From the IMG/VR virus record IMGVR_UViG_3300047510_002037, positions 20,700 to 84,699 of that record: 64,000 nt of DNA; one strand, given 5' to 3'. Below are positions 17,243 to 58,512 of the stretch, piece by piece (position 1 is the stretch's first letter; each line of letters begins with the position of its first letter). The DNA is from a virus. The notes beneath the pieces were generated by a model. The model was given only the letters and a program-made list of their open reading frames with translations. It was not told where the DNA came from and made no database searches. The position numbers were made by a program, and so were the translations under genes.

Positions 17243-17714
17243 AAATTGTTGGAGCTTCTGGCCATAGAATATTCCATGGAAATCCTTTTTGCGTGGTTAT
17301 GTTCCTCAATTGATCTCTATAGACTCTCCATTCTTTGATAAATTCTTTTGAATTTATCTCTTCCGATTCTGGTAATTGGGTCCAATCACACATATACAAT
17401 TTCATATTCCTTTCATTTCTAACTTCTGCTGCTTTTTCAGCAGTAACAGCTTTTTTTTCACTTTCAGTCATAGAAATAAACTTCCATGTTTGTCTATAAA
17501 TTCCATCATTGCCCTTTACCGGGGAATCTTCAACTACTTTTGTAAATTTCTTTGGATGAGGTTGTGCGGTAAATTCATATACGCCAAATCCAAAAGGTTC
17601 TACCACTTCCGGACTAAGAACTTCCGGAAATGATGTATTTCTAAATAACATCCGAAAATTTTTTTCATCAACTGGATGTCCAAATGGTACGCCATTGTCT
17701 AGTTGTATTAGCAT
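17241..17714 (-). CDS. Phage tail assembly chaperone-like protein
   Basis: 157 residues. The C-terminal 60 residues have the pattern R-N-x-x-L-x-x-x-D-W-T-Q-L-P, then W-x-x-Y-R-x-x-L-R-N-I-T and a final FPWNILWPEAP, which is the signature of the phage tail assembly chaperone family (Phage_tail_APC type). The N-terminal half (VPFGHPVDEKNFRMLF, then VYEFTAQPHP) is a variable domain often fused to it. In other phages such proteins sit beside fibre genes and help fibre folding or attachment; here it lies between the glycine-rich adhesin and the 813-residue fibre, which fits. Confidence 0.75.
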   Translation of the reverse strand: MLIQLDNGVPFGHPVDEKNFRMLFRNTSFPEVLSPEVVEPFGFGVYEFTAQPHPKKFTKVVEDSPVKGNDGIYRQTWKFISMTESEKKAVTAEKAAEVRNERNMKLYMCDWTQLPESEEINSKEFIKEWRVYRDQLRNITTQKGFPWNILWPEAPTI

Positions 17715-17747
17715 TCTAAGAATTCTCCGTACAGTGATAATTCATGT

Positions 17748-18653
17748 TTATTGAGTATTTATTGAAGGAAATGCTCTGGAATTTCCAGGCCAAATTATTC
17801 TAACTGCTCCTCTTCCACCAGCACCTCCAGATAAGAATAGAGTTGGTACTCCAACACCAAATCTGATAAATCCAGATCTTCCTCCACCACCATAAAGTCC
17901 ACCATCTAAGTCTCCATTTTGACCACTACTTCCACCTCCAGATGGAGTAGCATTTCCTATTTGACTTGAAGATGATGCTCCTGTTCCACCAAATCCATCT
18001 GATCCTTGACCATATAGACCAACACCTCCACCTGAAGAAGATCTAGCTGGTTGAGATGCGGTTGAAAAATATAGTGTCTGCCAGGAACCTCCACCACCTC
18101 CGCCAGCACCGCCTAGTCCAGGAGAACCATTAGATCCAATAGATGAAGAACCTCCTGATCCTCCATTTCCACCATCTCCGGTATATCCACCTGCACCTCC
18201 GCCACCAGATCCTTGCTGTCCTGCCGATCCACCGTTTCCTCCACCATTTCCATTTGCATAATTACCTCCTGTTCCATCTGATAATCCTCCATATGCTATT
18301 ACTGTTTCTTCATCATAAGTAAAACTGGAATATCCGCCATTACTCCCTAAAATTGGTGAAGCACTAGATCCAGAAGATTGACCACCTGCCCCGACTTCTA
18401 CAATGTAAGAAGAACCTGGATTTACTTGTATATTATTTTTATATACTAAACCGCCACCGCCACCGCCAACAACTGCACTCGAAAATACTGTTGGAGATGC
18501 TCCTCCACCAACAGCAACTACACTAACACTCCTTACTTTTGGTGGTGCAATCCAAGTATATACTCCTGGAGTATCGTATATTTGCTCGTCATCTGCAGGA
18601 GAAGCTGAGATTATTGCTGTTGAAAACAGCATCATTTGAGATATAAAATGCAT
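17748..18653 (-). CDS. Glycine-rich adhesin-like protein
   Basis: 301 residues. After a 25-residue N-terminus comes a strand pair (YDTPGVYTWIAPPKVRSVSV) followed by VVAVGGG and long runs of Gly with Ser/Ala/Pro, matching the glycine-rich domain that follows a T-x-V-P-x-G type start in phage proteins. Such Gly-rich motifs form polyglycine-II helices in the receptor-binding adhesin Gp38 of T-even phages. This protein is of similar size and lies among fibre genes, so it is a candidate tip adhesin. The first 17 residues are hydrophobic (MMLFSTAIISAS) but there is no positive N-region, so export is unlikely. Confidence 0.65.
   Translation of the reverse strand: MHFISQMMLFSTAIISASPADDEQIYDTPGVYTWIAPPKVRSVSVVAVGGGASPTVFSSAVVGGGGGGLVYKNNIQVNPGSSYIVEVGAGGQSSGSSASPILGSNGGYSSFTYDEETVIAYGGLSDGTGGNYANGNGGGNGGSAGQQGSGGGGAGGYTGDGGNGGSGGSSSIGSNGSPGLGGAGGGGGGSWQTLYFSTASQPARSSSGGGVGLYGQGSDGFGGTGASSSSQIGNATPSGGGSSGQNGDLDGGLYGGGGRSGFIRFGVGVPTLFLSGGAGGRGAVRIIWPGNSRAFPSINTQ
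17756..17763 (-). promoter_or_regulatory. Late-promoter-like element AATAAATA
   Basis: Minus-strand AATAAATACTC about 42 bases before the ATG at 17714; it overlaps the last codons of the glycine-rich gene. Confidence 0.45.
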
Positions 18654-18657
18654 TTTA

Positions 18658-18987
18658 TTATACTGATACTGTATCGTAAACTAAAATAGAACCTTCAACG
18701 ACTTTCATTAATTTATCTGTTGAATTTGTTTCGATAATAATATCAAAATAATTTCTTCCATTATCTAAATCTGATGTGATTGAACTCGCCATTGAAATGA
18801 GAACACTATTATCATCTTCATTAATATAGGTATCGAAAGTCTTGTAATTTTCTGAAGCTGGATGCTTCCTAATCTTAGCAAGTGCTGTTTGACTTGAAGA
18901 ATCTAAAGTTGTGACAGCGATAGATACTTTCTTTTCAAAATCGGTTCCTTTATATATTGTTATTGATGTTACTGAAGGAACGCTCAT
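18658..18987 (-). CDS. Small virion protein, beta-rich
   Basis: 109 residues: SVTSITIYKGTDFEKKVSI opens with the strand pattern seen in small Ig-like or BppU-N-like phage domains, followed by alternating strands and acidic turns (TYINEDDNSVLISM). No catalytic motif. It lies four bases before the glycine-rich adhesin gene and after gp16, with a late-promoter-like element upstream. Likely a baseplate or fibre connector; I do not recognise a named family with certainty. Confidence 0.55.
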   Translation of the reverse strand: MSVPSVTSITIYKGTDFEKKVSIAVTTLDSSSQTALAKIRKHPASENYKTFDTYINEDDNSVLISMASSITSDLDNGRNYFDIIIETNSTDKLMKVVEGSILVYDTVSV

Positions 18988-19011
18988 TTTAGTAAAAATA
19001 TCTTATCTAAC

Positions 19012-19443
19012 TTATTTATTATCCAGTTTAGTAGACTTTAAAAGTTTGGATAACTCTGAAGTGGATCCAACAAATAAAGCATTAGTAACATTTGTTGGAT
19101 TTTTGGATTTTGAATCCTCTTCTACTTCTTTGAGTTTTTTTTGCAGTTCCATTAATTTATCTGTTGCATCTGCAACATTTTTAATCAATTGACCTGCTAC
19201 TTCATATGCCCTAGGCATTTCGCTTTCTTGAGCTAGTTCTAATATCCCATTGATAGCTTCCTGACCTTTTTCTATTAACGAATATAAATTTCCCCTAGTA
19301 TATTCATAATCTTTTTTAATATCATCATTGGTACTTTTTGGTTTAGTATCTATGGACATATCTTTTATTTCTTCTATTTTTTTAGATACTATCTCTCCAG
19401 TCACATCAAAAGCAGCATCTAAATCATCGAAATTTTGTTTCAT
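19012..19443 (-). CDS. gp16: Small terminase subunit gp16
   Basis: 143 residues from the ATG at 19443, which follows the gp15 stop as TAAGATG; an upstream in-frame extension to 19482 would lie inside gene 15 and is rejected. The order of features matches T4 gp16: acidic N-terminus, DYEYTRGNLYSLIEKGQEAI, a helix with AQESEMPRAYEVAGQLIKNV, a coiled segment KLMELQKKLKEVEE, and the conserved end NALFVGSTSELSKLL. Gp16 recognises or prepares concatemeric DNA and stimulates the large terminase gp17. T4 gp16 has 164 residues. Gp17, its usual partner, is not downstream in the window. Confidence 0.88.
   Translation of the reverse strand: MKQNFDDLDAAFDVTGEIVSKKIEEIKDMSIDTKPKSTNDDIKKDYEYTRGNLYSLIEKGQEAINGILELAQESEMPRAYEVAGQLIKNVADATDKLMELQKKLKEVEEDSKSKNPTNVTNALFVGSTSELSKLLKSTKLDNK
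19013..19020 (-). promoter_or_regulatory. Late-promoter-like element AATAAATA
   Basis: Minus-strand AATAAATAAG about 26 bases before the ATG at 18987, overlapping the stop codon of gene 16. It would let the fibre cassette be transcribed apart from the neck genes. Confidence 0.5.
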
Positions 19444-54945: not shown

Positions 54946-55842
54946 TTATGCTGCTGTTTGAAACCTACCGCTGTTGAAGTTGTGATAACTGAAGACCTCA
55001 CGATTCACGAGTTTGAACATACCAAACTCATTGGTCATTACATAACCCTCAGCATCAATACGATTGCCGTTCACATAAGCAGCAGGACCATCATTGCGGC
55101 ACAGGAACAAACAATCATCTTTGATAGACTTCACCAATGCCCACAAACGAATCAGGTTAGGATCACAATCAAAGTCCTCTGCAGCAACCTGTTCACCAGC
55201 ACGAATGCAGGCGTTGATTTGCTGTTTGATCTTTGCTGCTTCCTTATCAGTTACGAACTGTGCAGTGGTAGACATTTGACGAGCAAACTCTACAACTTCC
55301 TTTACATCAGCAAACGATTCTTGACGATAAAGAATGTATGCTTCAGGTTTCACAAACTTAACGGTTTCAGTATCATTCCAGACCGCACGATCAGGCATTG
55401 CTACTGCTTCACGCAGATCATTCTCTGCAAAGTAGCACGTATGAGGTGCAATGATGATCTCTTGAGTTACTACTTCACCAAACTTGTAAGTAATCGTGTT
55501 GGGGCAATACTCATCATTACCGCCAAAACCGATAAAATCACCTTGGTAGACAGTATTGGTGCGAGGAAGATAATCGAAGCAAGAATGCAGAATAACCGCA
55601 ACCTCACCCTGATAGAACGCATCAATTTCTTCATGAGAGTGAGCAATGCGAATCTTTTTCTTGTTAAAGACTGCTTTAGTTCCTACAAAGAACTCACCGT
55701 TTGCGGGGTCGATTCCCCATACAATTGCGGGAGCACCATCAATCTTAACGCTGAGAGTCCCAGCGTTAACGAACCAATCAAGAACAGTAAGGTCGCCCGT
55801 GAGGATAACATCTTCGGGGTGTTCGAGGTGTTTGTTTTGCAT
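54946..55842 (-). CDS. Nucleotidyltransferase-superfamily protein (RNA/DNA ligase-like)
   Basis: 298 residues from the ATG at 55842 (MQNKHLEHPEDVILTGDLTV); a longer frame to 55908 would begin upstream of the likely transcript. Motifs in order: SVKIDGAPAIVWG (K33-x-D-G36, the covalent-nucleotide motif I of ligases), GEFFVGTKAVFNKKK, VYQGDFIGFG as motif III equivalent, a helical insert, AEGYVMT (motif IV-like E-G) and MFKLVNREVF (motif V-like Lys). This order is typical of ATP-dependent ligases and capping-type nucleotidyltransferases. It may be the cyanophage protein labelled DUF6267, from memory. It might repair tRNA or nicked nucleic acid; substrate unknown. The CATACT box seven bases upstream implies a nearly leaderless mRNA. 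Confidence 0.68.
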   Translation of the reverse strand: MQNKHLEHPEDVILTGDLTVLDWFVNAGTLSVKIDGAPAIVWGIDPANGEFFVGTKAVFNKKKIRIAHSHEEIDAFYQGEVAVILHSCFDYLPRTNTVYQGDFIGFGGNDEYCPNTITYKFGEVVTQEIIIAPHTCYFAENDLREAVAMPDRAVWNDTETVKFVKPEAYILYRQESFADVKEVVEFARQMSTTAQFVTDKEAAKIKQQINACIRAGEQVAAEDFDCDPNLIRLWALVKSIKDDCLFLCRNDGPAAYVNGNRIDAEGYVMTNEFGMFKLVNREVFSYHNFNSGRFQTAA

Positions 55843-55848
55843 GAGAGT

Positions 55849-55890
55849 AGTATGGCGCATCTGGGGGCGCTTTGGGGGATTTGGTGGACA
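55849..55890 (-). promoter_or_regulatory. Promoter module: TGTCCACC box, C-rich spacer, CATACT
   Basis: TGTCCACC at 55883-55890, 28 bases, CATACT at 55849-55854. The start codon of the ligase-like gene is only six bases beyond. Confidence 0.55.
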
Positions 55891-56032
55891 GTACGGGAAC
55901 TGGCTCACGAACCCTCTGGCTGCCGCCCAGGATGCCCTAGAATAGGGTCACAAGCGAATGAGGGGAGATGTATCCCTGCAGACGACAATTATCGACACTG
56001 AAGCAGCCTTAAAATATTATAAAACAAAATAT

Positions 56033-56601: not shown

Positions 56602-56631
56602 GATTCTCAATAAGAAAGTTTATTGAGAATC
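56602..56631 (-). other. 12-bp perfect hairpin at the end of the 67-residue gene
   Basis: GATTCTCAATAA, six-base loop, TTATTGAGAATC. It overlaps the stop codon at 56630. No T-run follows. A related GATTCTCAAT hairpin lies at 57673-57701. Confidence 0.65.
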
Positions 56632-56833
56632 AAACTTCTGCAAGTTTACGAAGGTTATTCATGATATCGTAGATCTCCATTTGATCCATATCTACATGAT
56701 CAAGATCTACAGGAGCGAACTCATGAAAGTTAACACTACCGTCAGAATATACGGGAGCATAATACAACTCATCTCCATCATCTTGGGAGAGAGAGTATAC
56801 ACAACCGTGCTCGGGGTAAGTGATGAAAATCAT
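56630..56833 (-). CDS. 67-residue protein
   Basis: Start at the ATG 56833 (MIFITYPEHGCVYSLSQDDG), because the -10 box GATACT at 56853 lies in the upstream extension. Followed by ELYYAPVYSDGSVNFHEFAP and VDMDQMEIYDIMNNLRKLAE. A four-strand-like start and a C-terminal helix; acidic. Similar small proteins (D-D-G-D-x-L-Y-Y-A-P-x-x-x-D-G-S) occur in phages; function unknown. Confidence 0.6.
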   Translation of the reverse strand: MIFITYPEHGCVYSLSQDDGDELYYAPVYSDGSVNFHEFAPVDLDHVDMDQMEIYDIMNNLRKLAEV

Positions 56834-56852: not shown

Positions 56853-56897
56853 AGTATCATTGCACCAATCTGCCCCCACTGGGGGGATTAGTGGACA
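56853..56897 (-). promoter_or_regulatory. Promoter module: TGTCCACT box, C/G-rich spacer, GATACT
   Basis: TGTCCACT at 56890-56897, 31 bases including CCCCCCAGTGGGGG, then GATACT at 56853-56858. Spacer slightly longer than in the other copies. Confidence 0.5.
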
Positions 56898-56928
56898 GTT
56901 CACGAAGCGGCACAAGATGTCTTGACTT

Positions 56929-57093
56929 TCACCAGATATCGTTTAGATCTTCTACATAAACCTCAACCTTTTCGTCACCTTCAAGATTAAATAGCTTCTC
57001 GTAATTAATATCACGAGCATTAAAGTCATTGTATACATCAAACTCTAGAGTAACGCGAACACGCTGCTTTTGACCGTGAAGATAAGAAACCAT
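56929..57093 (-). CDS. 54-residue protein
   Basis: MVSYLHGQKQRVRVTLEFDV then YNDFNARDINYEKLFNLEGD and EKVEVYVEDLNDIW. Strand-helix-strand pattern. It is the first gene behind the consensus promoter at 57117-57145, with a leader of about 20 bases, so it should be transcribed strongly and early. Function unknown. Confidence 0.65.
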   Translation of the reverse strand: MVSYLHGQKQRVRVTLEFDVYNDFNARDINYEKLFNLEGDEKVEVYVEDLNDIW

Positions 57094-57116: not shown

Positions 57117-57145
57117 AGTATAATACAATTCCAGTGTCCAGTCAA
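57117..57145 (-). promoter_or_regulatory. Sigma70 promoter TTGACT-17-TATACT
   Basis: TTGACT at 57140-57145, a 17-base spacer and TATACT at 57117-57122. It diverges from the plus-strand promoter at 57593-57621 across the repeat array. Confidence 0.75.
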
Positions 57146-57592
57146 GGGACACATAATACACTGGCACATGTCTCGATAAATGTATATATGTTATATGATG
57201 TACAATATAGAGTGTATATGTGAATGTACACACACATCTAGATGGTGTGGGAAGGGGTGAGTGGGGTGAAGCACGATTCTCGCACTATACGCGAATCTAG
57301 TTGCATACCCACACATTCTTGCACTCTCGCACATGAATCTAGTTGTGTTATATGATGATATGATGAATCTCGAAGAGCTAGTTGAGACTTATGATGATCT
57401 AGTTCTATTATATGATGATGCGCGAATCTAGTTGTATTATGTGAATCTAGTTGTGTATATGATGATCTCGAAGCATGATGCGAATCTAGTTGTGTGTTGC
57501 GGAATCTAGTTCGCCTTATAAGTATACAGGATCTCGAAGGTCTCGTCAAGTTTTTATGTGCGCGACCCCTGATAGGATTTTTGCCCGCCCGC
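57146..57592. other. Non-coding interval between divergent promoters
   Basis: About 450 bases without a credible gene. The left part (57170-57235) is AT-rich with TATATG/ATGTAC words; the middle holds the AATCTAGTTG array with ATATGATGAT and ATCTCGAAG words between; the right part (57540-57592) is unique. Frames crossing it (for example 57238-57636 minus) only spell the repeat. Confidence 0.7.
57294..57512. repeat. Array of eight AATCTAGTTG-like repeats
   Basis: Copies start at 57294, 57336, 57375 (GAGCTAGTTG), 57396 (GATCTAGTTC), 57425, 57444, 57483 and 57503 (AATCTAGTTC), all in one orientation. Starts are 19 to 42 bases apart. Two further words alternate with them: TTATATGATGAT and ATCTCGAAG. 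Each copy contains CTAG. Confidence 0.85.
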
Positions 57593-57621
57593 TTGACTTT
57601 TTTGAGGTCTTGTGATACAAT
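57593..57621 (+). promoter_or_regulatory. Sigma70 promoter TTGACT-17-TACAAT
   Basis: TTGACT at 57593-57598, 17-base spacer, TACAAT at 57616-57621. It points to the only plus-strand gene, leaving a leader of about 135 bases. Confidence 0.75.
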
Positions 57622-57672
57622 GCACGCTAAGATCACAAGGTCTCAGCACATTTATAAGTACAATTCTATCTT

Positions 57673-57701
57673 ATTCTCAATAATAATTGATATTGAGAAT
57701 C
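57673..57701 (+). other. Leader hairpin GATTCTCAAT type
   Basis: ATTCTCAAT, a ten-base loop and ATTGAGAAT in the leader of the oxygenase-like gene. The same stem sequence forms the hairpin at 56602-56631. Confidence 0.5.
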
Positions 57702-57762
57702 AAATACAACACACAACTATATTTTTTAATACATTTTTTTTAATTAAAAATAGGTTAATTAA

Positions 57763-58512
57763 ATGCAAACATTAGATAAACTCTTTAAAGAAACGTTTGT
57801 TATCAGTAAGGATATAAAGACAACAGAAGTAGATTATGTTTATAAATTCAGCAATGTATTTCAAGATCCAGAGAGTGTATTGAACTTTAAGAATAAACTT
57901 TCACTCTGGGAATCAGAAGAGGGATCTAAACCAGGAGTGAATAGTTTAATGCTACCTCACTGGACTACACAATACATTTGTGATCAATTCATTCCTGATA
58001 GTATTGATTACATTAAGGGTGAGACTGTATACTTTAATAATACTCGATTTAATTACTTCTACTATAACAATAAGAATATTCACTCAGAACCAAAAACATT
58101 AAGTTCTAATAACTGTTTATTGCCTCATTGTGATCCTACATTTGCATTCAGGAATTGGATTCTATTGGTGAACTTATCGGAAGATCCAATCACAACATGT
58201 TTCTGGAGTTACATGTATCAGAAGCGCATCAATCATCAAAAAGAGCTTAATGAATTTGAAGATTATACATCATACAATAACATTAATGAAGATAATATTG
58301 ATGAGAAATTAAGTCATGGTTTATTGAGAAAACAGTTCCCATTAACATATGGATTTAATGAGGCAATTATCTATGATGGTAATAGATTACATCAACCAAT
58401 CATTACAAAGAACTTTACAAGAGAGAATCCAAGACTTGTATTAAGAGTTCAGATTAGAGGAAGTGATCTTACACCTGATGATGTTTGTGATGGTGATGAG
58501 GGTTTTGAATAA
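57763..58512 (+). CDS. Probable 2-oxoglutarate/Fe(II)-dependent oxygenase
   Basis: 249 residues, the only gene on the plus strand. The iron site of this superfamily is visible as H122-C-D124 in LLPHCDPTFAF and a distal H210 in YDGNRLHQP, with an Arg in ENPRLVLRVQIRG (R224 or R228) placed to bind 2-oxoglutarate. The strand YGFNEAIIYDGN before the distal His is typical. Codon use is AT-rich, unlike the GC-rich block beside it. It has its own consensus promoter and a long leader with a hairpin. Cyanophages carry many such enzymes; substrate unknown. Its last 64 bases overlap a convergent minus-strand gene. Confidence 0.68.
   Translation: MQTLDKLFKETFVISKDIKTTEVDYVYKFSNVFQDPESVLNFKNKLSLWESEEGSKPGVNSLMLPHWTTQYICDQFIPDSIDYIKGETVYFNNTRFNYFYYNNKNIHSEPKTLSSNNCLLPHCDPTFAFRNWILLVNLSEDPITTCFWSYMYQKRINHQKELNEFEDYTSYNNINEDNIDEKLSHGLLRKQFPLTYGFNEAIIYDGNRLHQPIITKNFTRENPRLVLRVQIRGSDLTPDDVCDGDEGFE

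Follow-up and report, generated by a model that had tools for sequence, protein, structure and literature searches.

A dense array of short repeats in a T4-like cyanophage was found at a single locus that is conserved in its relatives. The array is very probably bound by a protein. On balance we favour reading it as a combined operator and iteron-like array, placed at a putative replication origin that also controls early genes; that the locus is an origin is, taken by itself, judged moderately probable. The window analysed here (64,000 nucleotides) covers bases 20700-84699 of an 84,699-base IMG/VR virus record. The phage was assigned to the T4-like cyanophages (cyanomyoviruses) from its gene content, which includes huge minus-strand tail/baseplate-type proteins and cyanophage-only families. 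Relatives of its gene at 54946-55908 were found in 465 phage records, cyanophages nearly throughout.

The preliminary description of this DNA had reported eight AATCTAGTTG-like words in a single orientation at 57294-57512, and all eight were recovered (five exact, one with one mismatch and two with two). The words said to be mixed in with them were also present (three TATATGATGAT and three [AG]ATCTCGAAG), except that the third [AG]ATCTCGAAG (57530-57539) lies just beyond the array. Moreover, ATCTCGAAG is not a separate word: on the minus strand it reads TCGAGAT (CTTCGAGAT), a variant of the same site. The density of CTAG had rightly been called striking (8 in 219 bp versus ~0.5 expected, Poisson ~1e-7 for one window). 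CTAG had been introduced there as usually rare in phage and bacterial DNA; here its count is near expectation (158 in 64 kb versus 174 expected), so the signal is the cluster and not the tetranucleotide. The exact word AATCTAGTT occurs eight times in the 84.7-kb contig, six of them within the array. The minus (coding) strand gives the natural reading, ACTAGATTC / TCGAGATTC, with the half-site WCKAGAT(TC). The best 400-bp window for WCKAGAT on the contig is the array itself (12 versus 0.26 expected), the next best holding 2. Neighbouring array sites are 9-42 bp apart, and the spacings between sites in the window run 27, 20, 19, 20, 19, 29, 21, 9, 30, 42 and 59. Helical phasing of the sites was suggestive for the window lineage and not general across the lineages compared. 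The array is not an accident of assembly, since a near-identical copy is present in IMG/VR contig 3300047564_003157. Just past the array, a C-rich stretch, TGCTTCACCCCACTCACCCCTTCCCACACCATCTAGATGTGT (57235-57290, minus strand), is strongly conserved at loci L011, L012 and L073.

The features of the locus are collected in the table. The array had been placed between divergent promoters; both of these stand to its right, and the promoters that flank it (57549-57521 and 57145-57117) are both on the minus strand, the first being the one that would transcribe it. The spacer of this first promoter carries CTTCGAGAT at offset 7, as in relatives, and the position of the opposing promoter is conserved in many of them. 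The strand switch consists of one plus-strand gene only (57763-58512), with minus-strand genes again from 58688. A 132-codon GTG frame over the array (57238-57636, minus strand) was discarded as a peptide because its start would be upstream of the promoter. The 54-aa protein was modelled with AlphaFold (pLDDT 80, pTM 0.51), and a search of the PDB gave no match. Two other motifs were seen between genes. The inverted repeat TTCTCAATAA...TTATTGAGAA recurs in the window (56610-56640 and 57664-57709) and in many relatives. The motif TGTGNCAGTT-n-AACTGGCACA, possibly another operator or a terminator, lies near cyanophage gene starts (56887-56912 in the window; L027, L097, L102, L250 and others).

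Table. Features of the array locus, in coordinates of the window.
Feature	Position	Strand	Remarks
Half-site array WCKAGAT(TC)	57294..57512	-	ACTAGATTC x6, variants ACTAGATC and ACTAGCTC, TCGAGAT copies
Sigma70-type early promoter TTGACG-17-TATACT	57521..57549	-	TTGACG 57549, TATACT 57521; reads into array
Spacer site of this promoter	57530..57539	-	Plus strand GATCTCGAAG
Opposing sigma70-type promoter TTGACT-17-TACAAT	57593..57621	+	TTGACT 57593, TACAAT 57621; points toward AT-rich block
Hyphenated palindrome CTTGTGAT...ATCACAAG	57603..57645	.	Includes conserved core GTGATCTTAGCGTGC (minus strand)
TACTTATAAATG, T4-type late promoter-like (TATAAATA)	57649..57660	-	From sequence only; recurs there in relatives
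Inverted repeat TATTCTCAATA/TATTGAGAATC	57664..57709	.	From sequence
AT-rich block, candidate unwinding element	57715..57765	.	Minus strand AATTAAAAAAAATGTATTAAAAAATATAG; nearly as in S-PM2 and L266
Second sense promoter TTGACT-17-TATACT	57117..57145	-	Before small 54-aa gene
54-aa gene, PHROG 12516 (no assigned function)	56929..57093	-	First gene past array; place conserved in relatives
249-aa gene	57763..58512	+	Beyond AT-rich block; sole plus-strand gene nearby; weak match to PHROG 1644

Relatives were gathered with the protein of 54946-55908 (417 loci found, 80 kept). Absence of the array from relatives with the same gene order had been named beforehand as the outcome that would speak against it. 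It was found at the same place, which argues in its favour, and clusters of CTAG and CTCGWCGAG stood upstream in most of the 80 loci. Twelve IMG/VR stretches, of which three belong to contigs of 100-154 kb, carry direct-repeat arrays of ACTAGATTC like that of the window. The half-sites of relatives (CKAGAT) also form a 13-bp palindrome, ATCTCGWCGAGAT. P-SSM2 has four perfect ATCTMGWCKAGAT palindromes at 66029-66170 and zero elsewhere in 252 kb. In S-T4 a single palindrome cluster is present, seen twice because the record apparently repeats its ends, and S-SRM01 has three mini-clusters nearby. Clustering of half-sites at a single locus was confirmed on assembled genomes, the counts per 400 bp being 12 for the window contig, 16 for P-SSM2 and G001, and 10 for S-T4 and S-SKS1 (~0.2 expected). 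The locus lies at 66.0 kb in P-SSM2, 19.2-19.6 kb in S-PM2, 52.55-52.80 kb in Syn9, ~151 kb in S-SKS1 and 80.1-80.7 kb in DSL-LC03. At the homologous place, S-PM2 (L248, AJ630128.1 19465-19620) carries dense repeats of its own, AAATCTCA / AAGATTT, which may be the array in diverged form. In the same record (17492-19333), tRNA features overlap protein genes and DnaA boxes, and their coordinates look displaced.

Fourteen loci were aligned. Read in the sense direction, the order was AT-rich block, opposing promoter, one or two sense sigma70 promoters, array and PHROG 12516 gene, with a TATAAATA-like site after the AT-rich block in many of them. A conserved element, GTGATCTTAGCGWGC...TATCACAA...TTGTCAA, holds the opposing sigma70 promoter, which is aimed into the AT-rich block. 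Many phages have an acidic ORF of 46-67 aa between the array region and the PHROG 12516 gene. This conserved, Tyr-rich ORF (MYDDYDLDYTY...LAYRHYA) is barely annotated and lies directly under the early promoter; it was seen at L102 15560-15680 (P-SSM2), L027 and ~23 other loci, and its composition recalls DNA-mimic proteins. A core profile trained on the 14 loci matched 12 of 13 long genomes or contigs, once each except in S-T4 and S-SM2, as well as ~60 IMG/VR contigs; P-SSM4, with zero matches, was the one miss among the 13. The training loci were not taken as independent support, since the profile was built from them. Most of the IMG/VR matches lie outside the training set, and S-SCSM2R, Sf-FS3, AG-345-F15, Sf-CH8, P-TIM68 and DSL-LC03 are, besides other loci, independent of it. 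Across 45 non-redundant loci, 434 half-sites were counted versus 41 in shuffles (maximum 63), and 33 of the loci had at least six. The consensus opposing promoter was found at 19 of the 45 (8.1 in shuffles). The core of the locus is also present in Bellamy and SynMITS, where no array and no DnaA boxes accompany it.

DnaA boxes cluster at the same locus; they were seen first in relatives that lack the array, and gave the earliest hint of an origin. The cyanobacterial box is TTTTCCACA (PMC4674748). Among the first 13 sequences, close pairs or triples of TTWTCCACA were found at this locus only, in Syn9 (52565/52589), S-SM1 (48835/48866), S-SM2 (58064/58085), S-SKS1 (151414/35/56) and S-PM2 (19231/44/56). 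Of 11 further genomes, P-TIM68 and DSL-LC03 alone have close pairs, at the locus in DSL-LC03 and ~0.2 kb from the profile match in P-TIM68. All seven genomes having a pair within 200 bp have it at this locus, and the cluster is also present in several IMG/VR relatives. The most instructive case is DSL-LC03, in which boxes by the AT-rich block are followed by AATCTAGTTC/AATCTAGTTG words and these by a run of five boxes at intervals of 12-18 bp; this five-box array occupies the position of the CKAGAT array in other phages, and AATCTAGTTG/C words adjoin it. The 45 non-redundant loci hold 32 strict boxes versus 0.58 in shuffles (maximum 4). Boxes and array occur together in S-SKS1, L264 and five further IMG/VR loci, so the two are not strictly exclusive. 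No DnaA boxes were found at the window's own locus.

An AT-rich candidate unwinding element stands beside the site array in the window (57715-57765), and a homologous block is present in relatives. In S-SRM01 and G001 no other 60 bp of the genome has a GC content as low as this block, and in S-SM2 it ranks second lowest among distinct sites. As in iteron-type origins, the repeat array of the window is unique in the genome. As at oriF and oriG, a promoter reads into the AT-rich element (plus-strand promoter 57593-57621, block from 57715), and in S-SM2, S-SRM01 and others the opposing promoter leads into the block with no gene there. The cumulative GC skew did not show a minimum of the origin type, and P-SSM2 shows a maximum at the locus. 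The anatomy suggests an origin because the AT-rich element adjoins clustered initiator boxes and a promoter is aimed into it. The earlier suggestion of origin iterons has thus gained some support from the single conserved locus, the AT-rich block, the promoters and the DnaA boxes of relatives. Confidence in protein binding and in an origin was kept at the levels given at the outset because of the unsupportive GC skew, the missing binder, Bellamy and SynMITS, and a possible transcriptional role of the DnaA boxes.

In the mechanism that we propose, the half-site CKAGAT would be the target of a sequence-specific DNA-binding protein. Early in infection, host RNA polymerase would start transcription from the minus-strand promoter, and a transcript from the opposing promoter would run into the AT-rich block. 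The array would next be filled by a protein of the phage or of the host, which would also occupy the promoter spacer, so that early transcription would be damped or switched. The filled array would form a nucleoprotein complex; in the AT-rich block next to it the duplex could open and replication start, primed either by the opposing transcript in an R-loop, in the manner of T4 oriF, or by a loaded helicase. Where a relative has DnaA boxes, DnaA, the initiator of the host, may take over or share the job of the array protein. We tentatively extend this to the group: cyanomyoviruses might replicate from a single oriC-like locus, some of them recruiting host DnaA by true cyanobacterial DnaA boxes, while others (among them the window phage and P-SSM2) might have replaced or supplemented the boxes with phage-specific CKAGAT iterons, whose binder would sit in the early promoter as well and so couple early shut-off to the start of replication.

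A pure operator array, in which a phage regulator binds the spacer and the neighbouring sites and shuts off or activates the early promoter with no role in replication, is possible but rather unlikely. Sites do recur at the same position of the core promoter, as expected of an operator: of 46 promoter-like sense sites in the arrays, 16 have CKAGA in the spacer, and in 11 of these it stands at offset 6-7 (~1.7 expected), the minus promoter of the window being among them. Besides this fixed offset between -35 and -10, the array always adjoins early-type promoters and small genes, and DnaA can regulate transcription too (PMC4674748). The earlier suggestion of operator sites has likewise gained support from the fixed offset in sense sigma70 spacers; no site was found in the plus-strand promoter, so that control of both promoters, as had been envisaged, is conjectural. 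A pure operator leaves unexplained the AT-rich block and the gene-less opposing promoter (S-SM2, S-SRM01 and others), and does not account for the seven genomes with DnaA-box clusters all having them here. The number of sites beyond the promoter is also unusual for a simple operator.

The fixed spacer offset and a codon bias in an overlapping gene together indicate that the array sites are recognized as double-stranded DNA. The bias was measured in 26 small ORFs overlapping the array, which are related and hence not 26 independent cases. Leu was encoded by CTC/CTA in 104 of 133 codons (15-21% background in the same genomes) and by TTA/TTG in 4 of 133 (40-55% background), so that the DNA word is conserved more closely than the amino acid requires, a constraint at the nucleic-acid level. 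An element acting in the transcript, as a protein sponge, processing sites or leader control, is improbable. The minus promoter would indeed transcribe the array, and in the window lineage all sites point one way; however, their orientation relative to transcription varies between lineages, the fold of the array transcript was nothing notable (z 0.42), and an Rfam search of the array gave no match above threshold. The 13-bp palindromes and the fixed place within an untranscribed promoter spacer also speak against it. A role in recombination, packaging or segregation, with the array as a pac- or parS-like site, is still less probable: the single locus per genome would suit it, but nothing in the analysis spoke for it, and promoter placement and DnaA boxes would go unexplained. 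T4-type packaging is headful. An origin of the words as a by-product of coding, namely of Leu-Asp codons in a small acidic gene, is hardly credible, although the ORF MYDDYDLDYTY..LAYRHYA overlaps the array in most relatives: this is already contradicted because the window has the array without that ORF (as do L011-L013, L087 and L266), Sf-CH8 has a similar ORF and no array, and the Leu codon choice is far from background.

The protein that would bind the array was sought by a co-occurrence screen and follow-up, and none was identified. Many cyanophages encode an AbrB-like protein of 53-59 aa at a distance of 3-6 kb downstream from the locus (L097, S-SRM01 93311-93481; P-SSM2 69246-69404; S-T4 171212-171388; many IMG/VR loci); in S-SRM01 it is annotated as DNA-binding. 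Diverged copies lie ~1 kb downstream in Syn9 and S-SM1. This candidate of the screen was rejected. The prediction that AG-345-F15 has an array was borne out, but a second one failed, since Sf-CH8 encodes the protein and shows no CKAGAT array. Conversely, the protein is missing from the window contig and from G002, both of which have arrays. A profile search of solved structures gave no confirmation of its AbrB fold.

Early and middle control in cyanomyoviruses, which are without MotA and AsiA, has been called unresolved (PMC2984593). The literature searched on cyanophage DnaA boxes and on T4-like phages with host DnaA, which covered few subscription papers, did not describe the locus, and no mapped replication origin in cyanomyoviruses was found in it. 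The locus bears on how the ocean's most abundant T4-type viruses start replication and switch off early genes, and for both questions a precise position is given in the cultured phages P-SSM2, S-PM2, Syn9, S-SKS1 and DSL-LC03. It also suggests that some cyanomyoviruses use host DnaA, unlike anything known for T4.

We know of no use of DnaA by T4 itself, whose late replication is recombination-driven. The locus resembles bacterial oriC and the origins of iteron plasmids and lambda-type phages in that clustered initiator boxes, TTTTCCACA in relatives, lie by an AT-rich element. It differs from them in that no adjacent initiator gene was recognized, sites also lie in promoter spacers and there is no skew minimum. 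In the lambda ori, sites can lie within coding sequence, as they do at this locus in relatives. At oriE of T4, an iteron cluster of direct repeats stands with an early-mode promoter, the role of the iterons being undefined (PMC3016281). The likeness is a direct-repeat cluster and an early promoter in a T4-type phage, and the cyanophage locus also lies in a small-gene region upstream of gp25/gp6. The T4 iterons, however, are 12-nt and even, whereas the half-site here is 6-7 bp with irregular spacing, palindromes occurring; DnaA boxes are not described at oriE. At oriF and oriG, a promoter is followed by an AT-rich unwinding element and its transcript can form an R-loop primer (PMC3016281). The opposing promoter here likewise points into an AT-rich block, but oriF and oriG have no repeat array, and cyanomyoviruses are without MotA (PMC2984593). 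For Syn9, a single theta origin was predicted, according to the account in the citing paper (Weigele 2007, cited in PMC2984593); the present locus is likened to it by number alone, one origin per cyanomyovirus genome having already been proposed.
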